A stretch of DNA of 47,805 nucleotides from an uncultured Clostridia bacterium. GTDB lineage: Bacteria; Bacillota; Clostridia; Oscillospirales; Ruminococcaceae. Below are positions 6,223-15,412 of the stretch, one piece after another. Both the position numbers and the translations under genes were made by a program. Positions within the stretch are counted from its first letter, which is position 1. Each line of letters opens with the position of its first letter. Under the pieces are notes generated by a model. That model ran no database searches, was not told the origin of the DNA, and worked only from the letters and a program-made list of their open reading frames with translations. Location: assembly GCA_947627875.1 (NCBI GenBank), contig CANQXS010000020.1, forward strand, positions 1 to 47,805, given 5' to 3'.

Positions 6223-9200
6223 TTATTTTTCGGTAGTCCAGAGCTCCGCGAGCGCCTGCGGGTCGTCGGCGTTCTTGTCGAACGGAACTATCGTATAGGA
6301 GTAGCGCAGCCCGAGGCTTGTGCTCACGACTTTATACTGGCTCAGCGGCTCGGGTCCGCAGGAAGCTCCGCCGGTACCCCTCGAACCGTAGTCGACGTTG
6401 AGATATGTGTGCTTTATATCGGTCGGAAGCTGATAGGGGTATCTTGCGTTGGAAAGATCGCTCACGCTGTAGTGGAGCGCCGAGGCTTCGAGCTCGCCAT
6501 TAGCGGCGATGAGGATACCCGTGTTCTTTTCGTCAGAGGTGAGCGCGAGCCAGCGCACTCCGGTCTTGTTGCCGGTGTCCTGAGGCTTGCCATATGGGTA
6601 GAAGCTGTCGGTAACGGTCTGCGAATACACTCCGACAGGGGAGCCGCGCCTGCGGTCGCTGTAGGTGTCGGCTTCGCCGCTGCCGTAGTAGGTCATATTC
6701 TCGTAGTCGGCGGGAAGGGTGATGAGGTTGCCGTATTTATAGACCTCGGTAACGTCTGAGCCGAACTCGGAATTGCAGCTTATGTTTACCGCGCCGTTTC
6801 CGTAAACGGTGTAGGTCATATTGTCATAAGAGCCGTTTGCCGAGAGCTTTAGGCGCTCGGTAACGGTAAGAGTCTTCTTGTCGGCTGAAAGCTCGTATTC
6901 AAAGCTTTCTGCCGAGCTCACCGAGGCGTTGTCGAGCGGGGTTCCGATGTTGTCGTTCGAGAGCCTTGCGCGCTTATAGTTCGGAACGGGTCCCTTTTCA
7001 AAGATATCCTCGCCGTTTACGGTGAACGTGCTTATCGCGCCCTTCGCCTTGTCAAACACGATTACGGTTTTGCCGCCGTTTGCGGTCACTGTGAGAGAGC
7101 CGTCGGCATCGGAAACATCGAGCTCGGGCATAGAAGCGGTATCGGCTTCGGATTCATCGGTCTTAAAGCGGATATCAAACTGCTCTATGGCGATTTTGCT
7201 GCCCTTTTCGCCCCAACCGTTGTCTTCCTTCAGAGCGGCGTAGACGTTGAGCAGATACTCGCTGTCAGGCTTGTTTTCAAGGGTATAGGGGATCTCTACC
7301 TCAACGGTCTCGAGCGGCGCGCATTCGACCTCGAAGCTGCCGCTGTCTACGACCACGCCGTTTCTCAGAAGCTCATATCCGAAGTCGAAGGCAGAGAGAT
7401 CGGTAAAGCGGAACTCGTTGTAGATTTCGATCGTTCTCTTGGCGTCGGTGAGGCGGTCGTCGTCGAACCAGACCGACTGATATACATATTTTACCTCCTG
7501 AGCCTCGGGCTGTATCTCGCGGTCGGCGCTGATGATGCCGTTCTGGCAGAAGTCGCCGCTGTTGGGGTTGTCGCCCCAGGTGCCGCCGTAGGCGAGGAAC
7601 TTGCCGTTGCCGTAGTGGTCATAGCCGTTTGCATTGGGTATCTCGGTCCAGATCGCCTGGTCTACGAAGTCCCAGATAAATCCGCCGAGGACATTGTCGT
7701 ATTTCCTTATTGCCTCCCAGTATTCATAGAGGTTGCCGACCGAGTTGCCCATCGCGTGGGCGTATTCGCAGAGAAGATAGGGCATGCGGTTTTCCCAGGT
7801 GCCGCGCCATTCAACGTCGCTTACCGGCGAATACATCGTGCTCGCGATATCGACTCCGCCGCCGCTTCCCTGCGACTCAAAGTGAATAGGTCTTGTCGGG
7901 TCACGCTGCTTTAGCTCGGCAATGCAGTTTACAAAGGTATCGCCGCCGCCGACGGTCTCGTTGCCCATCGACCAGATTATAATGCAGGTGCGGTTTTTAT
8001 AGGCTTCGGTGTGGGCTTCTATCCTGTCGCGGACCACCTTCGAGAAGTAGGTCTCGGTGTCGCCTGCGCTCACGTTGTAGTGGGTCTCGACGTTGCATTC
8101 GCCCATAACGAGTATGCCGTATTTGTCGCACATATTGTAGAAGTTTTCGTCGTCGGGATAATGAGAGGTCCTCACTGCGTTTATATTGAGGCTCTTCATT
8201 ATTTTAACGTCCTTCTCCTCGAGCTCCATAGGCAGATATCTGCCGGTCTCGGGGTTTACCTCGTGGCGGTCAACGCCCTTTAAGATGAGCGGTTTGCCGT
8301 TGAGCAGGACCTGTGAATAAAGCTCGTTTTCCGTCGTTCCCTCGGTGGGAGTGAAGCTGAGCTCCCTGAATCCGAGCTGCTGAGAAATGCTGCCGTAATA
8401 GGCTCCGCTGCCGTCATAGAGCGAAACTACGAGGGTATAAAGGTAAGGGTCTTCGTCGGACCAGAGCCGCGGAGAAGATACCTTTTTAGAGAGCGACACC
8501 GAAGCGGTCTCTCCCGAAGCGGTTTTCGGGACGGCTTTTCTCATCGGGCTTGAGGCGAAAACTTCGTTCTTGTCGGCGTCGAAGAGCTTTACGTCAACGG
8601 TGAGCCCCTCGGCGGTGTCCGAAACGGTGGTGTTCGATATCTCGACTTCGAGCTTTAAGTCGGCGTCTTTATAGGACTTGTCGAGGTCGGTGATAACTCT
8701 GTAGTCCGAAATTCTTACGCCGGTTGTGGAGTAGAGATAAACGTCGCGGAAGATTCCGGCGAGCCTTAAGAAGTCCTGATTCTCGAAGTAGCTGCCGTCG
8801 CACCAGCGGTGTACCTCTACCGCAAGGAGGTTGTCCTTTCCGTCGGGGTTGAGATAGGGGGTGATGTCGAAATCTGCGGCGTCGAAGGTGTCTTCGCTGT
8901 AGCCGACTTCATGCCCGTTTACATATACATAATATGCCGATTCTACCCCTCCGAAGGAGATATAGACCCTTCTGCCCTCGGATATCCATTCCGGATCGAC
9001 GTCGAAGTAATGCCTGTAGAAGCCCACGGGGTTCATGACCGTCGGGATATTCGGGGCATAGGTTTTGTCGGTGCCGTAGGCGCCGTCGTTCCAAGGGTAG
9101 ATGGTGTTGGTATAGATCGGGAAGTCGAAGCCCTGAGTCTGCCATGAGGCGGGGAGGGTAACGTCTTTAAAGCCGCCGTAATAGGCGTTTGAGGAGGAAT

Positions 9201-9684
9201 ATATCTTCTGCTCGCCCTCGTATTCCGGCGCTGCCGACATATCGTAGTCGGTTCTGTAAAACCTATCGTATACTCCCGCGGCGGTCGCGTCGTCAACGTT
9301 TTTATAGACCGCGAGCTGCCAGACGTTTTCCTCGCCGGTGAGGAGCTCATAGTAGTCCGAAAGGCTTCTGTCGTAGCTGCGCGCGCCCTCAAGCGCCTTC
9401 TCGACGCTGCCGTAAACCGCCGTCCCTACGCTGTGATAGCCAACGGTGTTCACCCTTACGATATCGCTCTGGCTGACCGAATTTCCCTTAATATCCCGCG
9501 AGAAGGGCTTGCCCGTCCATTCGAGCTTTGAAAAAATCAGCCCCGCGTCGGTGTCAATGAGCTCCGCATCGGGCTTGAGGGAATAATCCCAGGGGTCTGC
9601 CTCGGCTCCGCAGGAGGAGAGCGCAGCTGCCGCCAAAAGCGCCAAAATAACCGCCAACGCGCGTATCTTTCTATAATGTCCCAT
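6223..9684 (-). CDS. Lipoprotein GH2 beta-galactosidase (LacZ-type)
   Basis: The 1153-aa protein has a lipoprotein signal (basic start, hydrophobic core, lipobox LSSC with Cys25), so it is exported and lipid-anchored. The glycosidase part has the classic LacZ order: sugar-binding jelly roll (about 190-325), Ig-like domain, TIM barrel (about 455-760), further beta domain and a C-terminal Bgal_small-like domain. In the barrel, RTSHYPDD and MGECNVETH are seen, with the acid/base E576 in SMGNETVGGG and the nucleophile E640 in LLCEYAHAMGNS. The expected activity is removal of terminal beta-galactose from oligosaccharides. About 170 residues precede the first GH2 domain. Cytoplasmic LacZ lacks an anchor; this enzyme would work outside the cell on dietary or host glycans (inference). 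It is divergent from the giant surface protein and has its own promoter. Confidence 0.93.
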   Translation of the reverse strand: MGHYRKIRALAVILALLAAAALSSCGAEADPWDYSLKPDAELIDTDAGLIFSKLEWTGKPFSRDIKGNSVSQSDIVRVNTVGYHSVGTAVYGSVEKALEGARSYDRSLSDYYELLTGEENVWQLAVYKNVDDATAAGVYDRFYRTDYDMSAAPEYEGEQKIYSSSNAYYGGFKDVTLPASWQTQGFDFPIYTNTIYPWNDGAYGTDKTYAPNIPTVMNPVGFYRHYFDVDPEWISEGRRVYISFGGVESAYYVYVNGHEVGYSEDTFDAADFDITPYLNPDGKDNLLAVEVHRWCDGSYFENQDFLRLAGIFRDVYLYSTTGVRISDYRVITDLDKSYKDADLKLEVEISNTTVSDTAEGLTVDVKLFDADKNEVFASSPMRKAVPKTASGETASVSLSKKVSSPRLWSDEDPYLYTLVVSLYDGSGAYYGSISQQLGFRELSFTPTEGTTENELYSQVLLNGKPLILKGVDRHEVNPETGRYLPMELEEKDVKIMKSLNINAVRTSHYPDDENFYNMCDKYGILVMGECNVETHYNVSAGDTETYFSKVVRDRIEAHTEAYKNRTCIIIWSMGNETVGGGDTFVNCIAELKQRDPTRPIHFESQGSGGGVDIASTMYSPVSDVEWRGTWENRMPYLLCEYAHAMGNSVGNLYEYWEAIRKYDNVLGGFIWDFVDQAIWTEIPNANGYDHYGNGKFLAYGGTWGDNPNSGDFCQNGIISADREIQPEAQEVKYVYQSVWFDDDRLTDAKRTIEIYNEFRFTDLSAFDFGYELLRNGVVVDSGSFEVECAPLETVEVEIPYTLENKPDSEYLLNVYAALKEDNGWGEKGSKIAIEQFDIRFKTDESEADTASMPELDVSDADGSLTVTANGGKTVIVFDKAKGAISTFTVNGEDIFEKGPVPNYKRARLSNDNIGTPLDNASVSSAESFEYELSADKKTLTVTERLKLSANGSYDNMTYTVYGNGAVNISCNSEFGSDVTEVYKYGNLITLPADYENMTYYGSGEADTYSDRRRGSPVGVYSQTVTDSFYPYGKPQDTGNKTGVRWLALTSDEKNTGILIAANGELEASALHYSVSDLSNARYPYQLPTDIKHTYLNVDYGSRGTGGASCGPEPLSQYKVVSTSLGLRYSYTIVPFDKNADDPQALAELWTTEK

Positions 9685-9884: not shown

Positions 9885-9913
9885 TTGACGGTTTTAAAAA
9901 TCGGTGGTATATT
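9885..9913 (+). promoter_or_regulatory. Promoter of the giant surface protein
   Basis: TTGACG (9885-9890) and TATATT (9908-9913) are 17 bases apart, with TG at 9905-9906. A leader of about 40 bases follows, then AAGGA (9946-9950) and the ATG at 9961. An intact promoter and ribosome site argue that the gene is meant to be expressed despite the frame break. Confidence 0.8.
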
Positions 9914-9960
9914 ATTATCATATATTATGCGGCGAGTCCGCGAGAAAGGAAGAATGAGGA

Positions 9961-12900
9961 ATGAAGAAAAGAATAGTGTCGGCGCTGCTGGCATTGGTTT
10001 TGATCCTCTCAAATTTCACCGGGGGGGGGGTTAATTGAACACGTCCATGTCGAGGCGGCAACCGGCTCAACAGAAGTCTTGCTTGATGTTTGGGGCTTAG
10101 GCAAATCTGAGCCGCAAACGATTTCCGGTGCAGGTACTTATACCTTTAAAGTGGAGAATGAGGCTGGCTGTGTTCTTGACGGATTGGGCATCGTCCTGAC
10201 TAATCCGTTAACTACAGATGGTGCCTCCAAAATCCAGGGCTATAAGATCAAAACCGATTTCGTAAAAGTAAACGGGGTTGAGTGCGAGACCATAGAAAAA
10301 TTGAATTGGGAACAAAAGCCCAACGAAGATAGCGTAAATGCTCCTATGTTCTTTACAGGTGATATAACCTATTATAACTGTTATTATCATGATGGAGATT
10401 TAGTCACAATCGTTGATGGAACTGTTGTAACCTCGGTTGAAGTAACCGTTACATTAACCGACGAATCTGTTGGTATAGATACTCCCGCGCCGCCCACGAA
10501 TATGGGAGAGGTTATATATACTTATTCCATTATAGGCGGCGGCTATTTTTCAATCTGTCAAGGTCCGCTTCCTGTAGCTTTCGACAATTTAAGGGAAGCC
10601 CTTAAAACAGAGGGTGCAACACTTGTTGTTGAAAGCACAAATCAGATTGATTGGGCTAATTTCAACTTTAATAATAACGATTATGCATCTTCGTTTAAAA
10701 AGAGTGAGGATAATAAATCGTATACCGCTTCTGCTTCGGATATATCTAAAGTGGTAGAAGAGAATTTTGTAGAAGGAAACGCTTGGGGCAATTCGTTTTT
10801 GTTCCAGCTTTCTTGTCCGGCTGATAGCAACATAGGTATGACAATATCTGTTGTTGCGCCTGCCGGTGATTTCGAGCCGTTTGAAATCGGACTTTATGTT
10901 GGTGGATTTAACCCAGACATAACTATAAGGGCGAAGAATTATGGTCAATACACTATTAGATGGGAAGGTTCTAAAGAAGAACTTGGCTGGCTAATGGTGA
11001 AAAGTACGGCAGGTGACAATATTTCCACTCTTGCAGAAGGAACCGAAATCAAGTTTACTTCCCTAAAGATAGACGACACTCCTCTTACTTTTAATAGCGG
11101 AGAATCTTGGTCTTATAAAATTGAATCAAACGGCAAATTTGAGGCTATGTTAAAGTCTCATACGGGAGTATATCAATACAAGGATGAAAGTGCTGTACCG
11201 AAAGAATCCGTTGAGGTCACTTTTGAAATTATTGATCCGAATGCTGAGCCTGAGCCTGAGCCCGTTCCCAAGCCGGTGGCTCCCGAAGGCTACGAGATAG
11301 TTTACGAGCTCGATTTGACTGATAAGAATATCGAGCCCAACTGGCAGGGCATAAGCGGCGATAATGCCGCGATTGCCGCGGCACTCCAGAAAGACGGCGC
11401 TTATGTTGAGTTCATAACCTGCTATCCCGGTGCAACTGCCGGCTGGATCAGGATAGAGCTCGAAGACGGAACGCAGCTCGAATATAACAGCTATGACTCC
11501 GAAATAAGGTCTGTTATAGATAAGACCGATAGAACAAGTATAGTAAGATTGCCGAACGAGGCTGTTCTCGACGCTATAAAGCAGGCGCAGGAAAAAGGCA
11601 CTGCTATAAAGGGCATTTCTCTTGTTTCAACAGGCTATTCTGATAACGACACGGCTAAAGAAAACAAATGCTTAGGTCTGTTTATTTACGCTAAGATACC
11701 CGGAGACGAACCCGACGAGCCCTGTACCCACCCCGAAGAAAGCCGCGAGTGGAAGTCCGACGCCGAGAATCATTGGCAGGTCTGCAAAAAGTGCGGCGAA
11801 GAGGTCCCCGAAACGAAAAAGCCCCACGACGCTCTTACTTATGAAGAGCTCGACAGTGAGAAGCACACCGTCAAGTGCGACACTTGCAGTTATTCCGGCG
11901 AGGAGGAGCACAGCTGGGACGGCGGAAAGACCGTTGAAGCCACCGAGACCGAAAAGGGATATATCCTTTACACCTGCGAAAAGTGCAAAGCCGAGAAGAA
12001 GGTCGAGACCGCTCACGTCCACAACGGCGACGGAGAGTTGAAATCCGACGAGGACAGTCACTGGTACGAGTGCACTGACCCTAAATGCCCTGACGGCGGT
12101 ATCTACGGCAAGGAGTCACATACTTATGAAAACGGCGTCTGCACAGTCTGCCGGCACGAGCATGCTGCTGATGCGCACACCCCGAAGGCGGGCACATATA
12201 AGAGCAACGGCGACACTCACACCTATGTATGCGATGTCTGCGGAGCAACGGTCACCGAAGGACATAAGATCGTTAAAGTCAGCGACGATCCTTCCGGACA
12301 CTATGACAAGTGCGAATTCTGCGACTACCAGACTAAGCCCGAGCCTCATACCGGATATGAACTTATCCCCGGCGACTTCATAAATCACTATGTGAAGTGC
12401 AGCTGCGGATATACCGCCAAGGAAGCGCATACCCCCGGCGCGGATTATGAAAAAGAGGACAACGACGCCCGCTATCATATCTGCACTAAGTGCGGCGGAA
12501 GATGCGACCCCGCATATCACGATTACACCGTTTATGTTGACGATGAAAACGGCGAGACCCACCATATAGAATGCTCCGGCTGCGGACATGTAAAGCCCAA
12601 CAGCACCGAAAAGCATACCTATGAAAACGGCGTCTGCACAAAGTGCGAATACGCGCACGCAGACCACGACTGGAAATGGACTCCCGACTTTGGCGGCACC
12701 ACCCATTCCCGCACCTGCTCGATCTGCCATAAGACCGAGACCGCAGCACACACCCAGGGCGAGCAGAAGAGCGACGAAAATAACCACTGGTATGTTTGCT
12801 CCGAGTGCAACGCGGAGTACAACATAACCAAACACGTTCTTGAATATGTCACCGACGGCGCAAATGGGCATCATCAGGAGTGCACCGGCTGCGAATATAA

Positions 12901-15412
12901 GACCGAGACCGTTGCTCACTCCTCTGCTCCTGCCGAAGGCGAAGAATACACCGATTTCGGAGACGGAGAGCACCATACTTACAAATGCGCACAGTGCGGC
13001 GACACCGTGACTGCCGCTCATAACTTCGAGAAAGGCGCCTACGAGGAAAGCACCACCGACCACTGGCAGATTTGCAAGGACTGCAAGGGCGAATCCGTCA
13101 GAGAAAACCATAAGTATATAGACGGCAGCGACCGCTGCTCCGTCTGCAACTACTGGAACCACCAGCACACGTTGGAGTGGAAGGACGACGGCGAAAACCA
13201 CTGGCAGGAATGCTCGAATCCCGACTGCGATTATAAGACCGAGAAGGAGCCTCACGTTTTAGGCGACAAATATGATTATAATGATACCCAGCATTCCCGT
13301 ACCTGCACCGTGTGCGGAAAGACCGTAGCTGAAAATCATCAGTTCGGCGATTATAAGTTCAACGCAGGTATGCACTGGCACGAGTGCTCAGTCTGCCAAT
13401 ACAAGACCGATTACAACGTCCATACGCTTGACGACGCTTCCGACGCAACATCTCACTGGCAAGAATGCACCGCCGAGGGTTGCGATTATGAGACCGAACA
13501 CAAGGCACATACTCCGAGCGAGGAATACGGTCAGAGTGATACTCAGCACTGGAGCGTATGCACCGAGTGCGGAGAAAAGTATAACTATTCAGAGCATACC
13601 CTTGCCAAAGATCTGAAGCACGACGCAGATGGTCACTGGACTGTCTGCTCCGTCTGCGGATATGAGAGCACCGAGAAGAATGAGCATACTTGGGATACCG
13701 GCAAGGTGACCGTTGAGCCCACCGAGACCACCGAAGGCGTTAAGACTTACACCTGCACCGAGTGCGGCGAGACTAAGACCGAATCCGTTCCTAAGTCCGC
13801 TCATAAACACGTTGCCGGCGAGGAATGGAAGTTTGACGAAAAGACCCACTGGCACGAATGCGTCTCCGAGACCTGCGACGACAAGAGCGCTAAGCTCGAC
13901 GAAGCTGCACATACCGAAGACGAAGGCACCGTAACAAAGGCTGCCACCGAAACCGAAGAAGGCGTAATGACCTTCAAGTGCACTGTCTGCGGCGCCGTTA
14001 CAAGAACCGAAGCCATTCCGAAGGTAAAGCACACTCACGTTGCGGGTAAGGATTGGAAGTTCGACGAAAAGACTCACTGGCACGAATGCGTCTCCGAGAC
14101 CTGCGACGACAAGACCGCTAAGCTCGACGAAGCCGAGCACGTTTGGGACGACGGCAAGGTAACGGTTGAGCCCACCTACACCAAGGAAGGCGAAAAGCTC
14201 TACACCTGCGAAGTCTGCGGCGAAACCAAGACCGAGACGGTTCCCGTTAAGGGTCACGAGCACAGCACGGTCACCAAGTCCGACGAAAAGGGGCACTGGG
14301 AAGAGTGTACGATCTGCGGAGAGATCATAGGCGAAGTCGAAGCCCATACTCCCGGCGAGTGGATAACCGACAGCGAAGCCACCTCGACCGAGGCGGGCAA
14401 GCGCCATAAGGAATGCACCGTCTGCGGATATGTTACCGATGAGCTTACCGTTCCCGCGGTCGGAGATATCGACGTCGAAGTTCCTACCGTAGGAAATGTT
14501 CCGAAGGTCGAGCTCCCCGCCGAGCAGCAGGAAGTTCTTAAGAACGCGATCATCGACGAAGAAGACGTAGAGGCCATCGAAAACGGCGCTTCCATCGACA
14601 TTGAACTCACCGTTGAGAACGCCGAGAGCACTATAGCTCCCGAAGACAAGGCAAAATCCGACGAGGCTGCGGCACAGGGCAGCTACACTCACGTCCGCTA
14701 CCTCGACATCAACCTCACCAAGGTAGTCACCGACGCGAGCGGAGTCTCGACTTCGGAGGAAATAAGCGAGCTCGGCAAGGAAGTCAGGATAGTCATCACC
14801 GTACCTCTCGGGCTTGCAAGACAGAGCGGCAGAGACTTCGCGGTTATCCGCGTACACGACGGCGAAGCGACCGTCCTTAAGGACCTCGACAGCGACCCGA
14901 ACACGGTCACCATTTCGACTAACCTGTTCTCGAGCTACACTCTTGTCTATGTCGACACAACTCCCGTTCCCTCCACTCCCGGCGGATTGATCGGACACGT
15001 TCACGTCATCACCGGACTTCAGAACGACGCCCATTACCACTGGAGAGGTTGCTTCATATGCAGCATGAGAGTCGACTATGAGCCTCATAGGTTCATAAAC
15101 GGCGTCTGCACCGTCTGCGGCTACCGCGATCCGGATTACGTTCCCGAGGTCGAGGAGGAAGAGCCCGCAGAGGCGCCCGACACGGAAGTCACGGTAGTTG
15201 ACGCTCCCGCCGAGGGTACCGAGCAGGGCGGCGATTCCGAGGGTACTCCCGAAGTCACGGATACCCCCGCTGACCTTCCGGAAACCGAAGCGGAAGTAGT
15301 CGAAGTCAAGGAAGACGACGAGACCTCCGAGAACCCGAAGACCGGCGTTGTATTCACCGGCATCGGCGCGGTAATGGCTGCTATTGCAGCGCTTATCGCA
15401 AAGAGAAAATAA
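9961..15412 (+). CDS. Giant cysteine-rich cell-wall-anchored protein, frame broken at G10
   Basis: From ATG 9961 the frame encodes a signal peptide (MKKRIVSALLALVLILSN), enters ten G (10021-10030) and stops at a TGA at 10036. The next frame is open from the tract to 15412. With nine G the two join exactly into 1816 residues. Downstream parts are: an N-terminal region of all-beta look (to about residue 570); then about 30 repeats built on HW..C..CG with paired CxxC; a folded domain (about 1500-1660); two last CxxC motifs; an acidic Pro/Glu/Thr stretch; and NPKTG (1791-1795) followed by a hydrophobic helix and KRK, a sortase-type sorting signal. The CxxC/His pattern suggests zinc-ribbon-like modules (inference). 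Possible roles are adhesion or surface display; the function is unknown. As given (G10) the product is a 25-residue peptide. This could be phase variation, a mutation or a sequencing error. Confidence 0.85.
10021..10030 (+). repeat. Homopolymer G10 inside the signal-peptide coding region
   Basis: Ten consecutive G follow the codons for the hydrophobic signal core. Loss of one G restores the frame through the whole downstream protein; nine G would encode GGG and then LIEHVHVEA, a plausible end of a signal peptide. Confidence 0.95.

Follow-up and report, generated by a model that had tools for sequence, protein, structure and literature searches.

A G10 tract in the leader of a giant putative surface protein as a probable contingency locus within a multi-gene set of poly-G tracts in uncultured Clostridia

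The window analyzed here, a stretch of 47,805 nucleotides from the genome of an uncultured Clostridia bacterium (the source genome), contains at position 9961 an ATG start codon (beginning ATGAAGAAAAGAATAGTGTCG...) that opens a signal-peptide frame on the forward strand. The start codon and the initial portion of the signal peptide (MKKRIVSALLALVLILSNFT, 9961–10020) are followed by a tract of ten G residues (G10, 10021–10030), the proposed switch, which occupies codons 21–24 of the leader, i.e., the 5' part of the coding sequence; in the present assembly the frame then ends at a TGA stop codon (10036–10038), and its complete translation is MKKRIVSALLALVLILSNFTGGGVN. The tract is embedded in the flanking context CAAATTTCACC-G10-TT (10010–10032). 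A preliminary description of this DNA had noted the ATG, the signal peptide, the tract and the stop, all of which are present in the window, together with a good promoter and ribosome site; these correspond to an extended −10 promoter of the sigma-70 type (TTGACG-17-TATATT with TG before the −10 box, 9885–9913, forward strand), which could be aligned in the related genomes G029 and G023, and to a purine-rich ribosome-binding region 5' of the ATG (9945–9959, forward strand). The 5' leader between them carries a short inverted repeat, GCGG...CCGC (9929–9941, forward strand); read by eye, it is retained in the two relatives (GCGGC/GCCGC in G029, GCGGT/ACCGC in G023), a single C-G pair being replaced by T-A. 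The divergent neighbor on the reverse strand (6223–9684) matches the profile of a GH2 beta-galactosidase of the LacZ type.

The long frame, which encodes the giant putative surface protein (10037–15412, forward strand), is open from 10004 to 15412; the first ATG, GTG or TTG within it is the TTG at 10079, giving 1777 codons, in agreement with the earlier view that this frame has no credible start of its own. Translation of its beginning yields a signal peptide end, EHVHVEA/A (10037–10060), that compares with EHVHANA/A in a sister leader discussed below; the frame arithmetic is also correct in that removal of one G joins the two frames. At its C-terminus (...SENPKTGVVFTGIGAVMAAIAALIAKRK), the sequence NPKTG, a hydrophobic stretch and KRK were read by eye as a sortase-type tail, as had been claimed. 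The N-terminal part is devoid of named domains, and profile searches of the long frame against Pfam and NCBIfam returned no match. Numerous short Cys/His repeats (HW..C..C) are visible by eye; at two places (query 1392–1477 and 1407–1467; E 1.4e-22) they match the C-terminal region of 9qa6_A, an IgA protease chain of solved structure, a likeness that is read as a common repeat, and the profile searches and the 9qa6_A comparison found no catalytic domain in the window protein.

A DNA search found the leader in three of 31 genomes of the genus (the source genome, G029 and G023), plus a weaker second copy in the source genome. Promoter and leader align among the three, and a G tract sits at the same place in each, as G10 in the source genome, G7 in G029 and G8 in G023; one genome per species was compared, and these are length differences between species. 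Such a comparison of homologous loci had been proposed in the preliminary description, which named an invariant G10 accompanied by further frame-breaking changes in relatives as evidence against a switch; instead, tract length varies, promoter and leader are conserved, and long open frames follow the tract, the G023 tail being absent. After the tract, 2600 codons are open in G029 up to the contig end, which falls within the NPKTG tail, and 1865 codons are open in G023 before a stop without a sorting tail; none was found in any frame of the 300 remaining bases examined. All three orthologous copies (3/3) are out of register in their assemblies, the source genome and G029 being offset in one direction and G023 in the opposite one, and no in-register copy of the giant gene itself was found among the leader matches of the 31 genomes. 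Three out-of-register copies would arise by chance with a probability of (2/3)^3, about 0.3, and they also fit a dead or rarely used switch; the G7 of G029 is short for fast slippage.

The second leader of the source genome (C10:32350) lacks the tract and reads ...SSVTGTVLFEHVHANAADD in one frame, which is open over all 529 codons examined. It carries EHVHANA/A in this continuous frame and matches the window sequence SNFT-Gn-LIEHVHVEAA; since it thus matches both window pieces, both are parts of one signal peptide. Between the source genome and G029, dN/dS was 0.34 over 1164 aligned codons, with dS of about 1 and possible local misalignment of tandem repeats, and differences were distributed over the three codon positions as 327/310/548; two G023 stretches at 29–35% identity fell below the threshold for this test. 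By this comparison the long frame is under purifying selection, and the earlier remark that the rest of the frame is intact, unlike that of a decayed gene, agrees with both the dN/dS value and the 1777 codons free of stops.

By itself, the G10 tract is unremarkable: when the window was dinucleotide-shuffled 100 times, at least three overlapping G8 matches turned up in 18 of the shuffled sequences. It belongs, however, to a set of 20 G runs of at least eight bases in the source genome (two G8, twelve G9, five G10 and one G12), 18 of which are nine or longer; a 441-kb sample of this genome, chosen to contain every long tract, holds 307 G5, 29 G6 and 3 G7 runs beside the 2 G8, 12 G9, 5 G10 and 1 G12, and A runs in it reach at most 8. 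A first-order chain for this sample (probability of G after G, 0.235) predicts 1.3 G9 and 0.3 G10 runs, and 23 G7 runs vs. the 3 seen; about a quarter of the runs of at least eight would be expected to reach nine, vs. the observed 18 of 20 (binomial estimate about 5e-10). Scaled to the whole genome, the chain null yields about ten runs of nine or more vs. 18 seen; the numerical excess of long G tracts is modest, and the shape of the run-length distribution and the flanks bear the argument. Chance as the source of the tract set is opposed by the run-length distribution, the flanks and the orthologues. At least one G run of nine or more occurs in 25 of the 31 genus genomes. Long clustered G runs in G006 and G010 and 464 overlapping G9 matches in G017 are probably sequencing or assembly artefacts. 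Loss of MutS as a cause of tract instability was ruled out, as all but one of the 31 genus genomes, with the source genome among the 30, have a mutS1 match above the cut-off; the exception, G002, gave only a weak MutS-family match. Adjacent pairs of open frames of 475–522 residues with a MutS-type domain were observed at G020:C47, G023:C27, G029:C15, G017:C67 and G018:C18.

The long tracts have a common directional context, an A/T-rich patch about 5–10 bases upstream followed by C-Gn-TA. In the source genome, C precedes 18/18 runs of nine or more and T follows 16/18; the window tract has the A/T patch and the preceding C, but its run is followed by TTA where the motif has TA, and the tract-free sister leader at C10:32350 lacks the A/T patch. 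For 47 deduplicated genus tracts from chosen loci (source genome, G019, G020, G026 and G029; two G023 stretches had no run of nine or more), compared with 3381 G4–G6 runs of the same loci, C before the run was found in 98% vs. 55%, T after it in 87% vs. 31%, TA after it in 77% vs. 6%, and A/T at all of the positions −9 to −7 in 81% vs. 13%. A general property of G runs is ruled out as the source of the motif by the 3381 short runs, which show neither C excess nor A/T patch; a promoter by-product was likewise rejected, as 34 genus tracts without TTGA or TTGT within 20 bases upstream still show the motif (82%). Among 14 picked genus genomes, C precedes 102/114 runs of eight or more across nine genomes, but only 11/35 in the other five (G007, G008, G009, G012 and G016).

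At the family level, 40 of 297 genomes together contain 124 occurrences of the pattern C-G9-TA, and its reverse was found twice; three or more occurrences were found in 12 genomes of 8 genera. The A/T patch accompanies 43% of 30 tracts in other genera, and 58% of the 19 without TTGA or TTGT upstream, vs. 12%; these tracts come from seven genomes in seven genera that were picked for having C-G9-TA, with the A/T patch unselected. The motif is not general to the phylum: outside the family, 396 genomes contain 26 sites vs. 8 in reverse (24 genomes with sites), never more than two per genome; a TTGAC/T string and a −10-like box together around the tract were found at 0/26 of these loci, and the A/T patch in 32% of 25 deduplicated contexts. 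The motif, a direct handle on the origin of the tracts, may be a slippage-prone context favored by selection. Alternatively, its presence in unrelated genes, in promoters and across several genera would mark a dedicated process in which an enzyme or protein of this lineage recognizes the flank and creates or lengthens the G tract or keeps it unstable, thereby writing switches at specific sites in place of passive slippage; we consider this unlikely.

Fourteen distinct tracts among the loci examined, two of them in the source genome, are of a putative promoter type, assigned by sequence pattern, in which TTGA[C/T]N and a −10-like box enclose a tract-containing spacer of 14–19 bases; the G run abuts the −10 box, with one base between them in L130. 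A search of viral contigs with one G9 pattern found no phage copies of such a tract. A promoter-like stretch, GGGTCTTGACACC-G9-TATGTTATGATAGG, recurs at six loci of G313 (L206–L211), four of which lie no more than about 100 bases from a contig end, and is probably a multi-copy promoter; G183 has a repeated promoter-like stretch as well (L229, L230). With regard to coding sequences, 30 gene pieces were hand-picked beside 27 of 59 C-preceded tracts of the source genome and four related genomes; 22 had Pfam matches and the other 8 none. By our own tally, 15 of the 22 belong to surface, glycan or cell-wall families, and no Pfam match to a DNA-modification family was obtained among the 30. The tract-bearing families comprise S8 subtilases, acyltransferase-3, LacAB/RpiB, MurT, DegT aminotransferase, nucleotide-sugar epimerase, aldo/keto reductase, bacterial sugar transferase, a LytTR regulator, three short-chain dehydrogenases, TupA ATP-grasp, two glycosyltransferases, a solute-binding protein, an EAL protein and a pilin-like N-terminus; both in-register and out-of-register genes are present among them. 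In G019, the two halves of an acyltransferase lie in two frames around a G11 and match successive parts of Acyl_transf_3, the second half just below the cut-off.

Several explanations other than a switch have to be weighed. Homopolymers are prone to sequencing error, and if the assembled tract length were wrong, the gene would be intact and no switching would occur; the artefact-like long or very numerous G runs in some genomes of the genus (G006, G010, G017) lend this view some weight. Yet assembly error cannot explain the recurrence of tracts at equivalent positions in relatives whose genomes were assembled independently, and in functionally sensible sites, and it fits poorly with the source genome, in which 18 of 20 runs of at least eight are 9–12 bases long and share their flanking context; even with G10 wrong, the orthologues with G7 and G8 would still stand, as would the wider tract set. 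Error as the full explanation is therefore quite improbable.

The frameshift could also be a fixed loss of function in a decaying gene, in keeping with three out-of-register copies out of three and with the G023 copy that lacks a sortase tail. We regard decay as very improbable because selection (dN/dS 0.34 for the source genome vs. G029) and long intact frames (1777 codons without a stop, and 2600 to the contig end in G029 and 1865 in G023 after the tract) speak against it, as do the conserved promoter and leader. Long G runs may slip in transcription, and full-length protein might be produced from every tract length, with the DNA unchanged, by RNA-polymerase slippage or by programmed ribosomal frameshifting, in keeping with the out-of-register copies that selection maintains. 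The direction of the shift is not constant, as it would be at a programmed site, G023 being shifted in the opposite way to the source genome and G029, and tracts also occur in promoter spacers, upstream of the transcript; because of this opposite shift and the untranscribed promoter tracts, programmed frameshifting has very little probability in our view.

The interpretation that we favor, with a probability of about 0.83, is that G10 is a slipped-strand contingency locus belonging to a poly-G switching system that spans several genes in uncultured Clostridia; from these comparisons we infer that slippage is the mutational step, that live populations switch and that the protein is displayed on the surface. 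On this simplest account, the G run would gain or lose G by slipped-strand mispairing during replication, with selection for switchable surface and glycan functions. In one tract-length class (modulo 3), start codon, signal peptide and giant protein would share one frame, and the protein would be secreted and anchored; in the other two classes, translation would end a few codons past the tract and no protein would reach the surface. The assembled copy would represent an out-of-register class. The about 20 tracts would act as translational switches in coding sequences and as transcriptional switches in promoter spacers beside −10 boxes, with others near gene ends, and a population would be expected to consist of cells in different surface states, as in a mosaic. 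The phase-variable expression put forward in the preliminary description is thus well supported by sequence comparison, in the form of varied tract lengths, a read-through sister leader, purifying selection and the tract set; of the OFF state that it assigned to this genome, the out-of-register frame stands, and "OFF" as such is a reading of the assembly. The tract set and its flanking motif are new beyond this earlier single-locus reading.

Multi-gene poly-G switching is best known from pathogens, including the poly-G contingency loci of Campylobacter; in Neisseria switches of the porA/nadA type, repeat length alters promoter geometry. The promoter-type tracts described here resemble the latter (TTGA[C/T]N-...-C-Gn-TATAAT-like, spacers 14–19), but the G run abuts the −10 box, the lineage is Clostridia, and coding tracts with the same flanks coexist. 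For Helicobacter canadensis, one study (PMC2823697) proposes slippage of G runs with selection for switchable surface and glycan functions, and some of its table rows give runs of 9–16 in genes for a glycosyl transferase and for methyltransferases as well as for proteins that are secreted or located at the surface; the same three placements (promoters, gene 5' ends and gene 3' ends) recur there. The present system differs from those of Helicobacter and Campylobacter in its uncultured Clostridia host, its runs of mostly 9–10 in the source genome, and possibly the common A/T patch-C-Gn-TA context. Clostridioides difficile and gut Bacteroidales use invertible promoters for phase variation, with site-specific inversion by recombinases, according to a review (PMC11868660); the likeness lies in surface and signaling functions that are switched in gut bacteria, and the difference in the mononucleotide runs found here. 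A gut habitat of the source organism is inferred from one relative, the uncultured Clostridia MAG "Lapin-012" (CANQPB010000014.1), a rabbit sample by its name. Among the matches listed in the open-access literature, none described poly-G switching in Clostridia. Such tract sets are present in the source genome and in several uncultured Clostridia genera related to it; should the switching prove real, these bacteria would form a bet-hedged mosaic with respect to surface proteins and glycans, with a bearing on phage resistance, on antibody recognition, and on genome annotation, where OFF copies resemble broken genes.

Some individual tracts deserve separate mention. A MurT-like gene was found at E 1e-60 in 4/31 genomes of the genus: a G9 splits it in the source genome and in G029, a G6 splits it in G025, and with G8 it is in frame in G020; in this MurT-like lipid II amidation ligase (G000:C9:5491-5499, i.e., L102; L162, L163 and L164), the tract lies just 3' of the GTNGKT nucleotide-binding motif, and switching of such a cell-wall amidation enzyme would be unusual. 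A G9 (G000:C2:27361-27369, L001/L097) splits a putative DNA cytosine methylase gene, recognized by eye from ENPRGGLRKM; its downstream piece had no Pfam or NCBIfam match. Another G9 (G000:C6:40462-40470, L007/L099) lies a few bases 5' of the TTG at which a LytTR response regulator may start, a position from which it might serve as the ribosome site or alter the spacing of that site. Acyltransferase-like genes of different genera, L109 (source genome, C32; the one tested against Pfam) and L195 and L198 (both G181), carry the tract at the same place, where it encodes GGGT immediately ahead of the first hydrophobic segment (two of them have RIGYIDxLKGFA there). Four short-chain-dehydrogenase genes have the tract at about the same position (L120:2955, L122:3013 and L138:3063 by Pfam, L120:17195 by eye). 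Finally, the element CCCCCGCCCCGAAATTCATC-G9/10-TAGTTT is conserved in three species (L105:10239, L146 reverse complement 2572 and L148:2959); base pairing between its C-rich arm and the G run could form a terminator-like structure.
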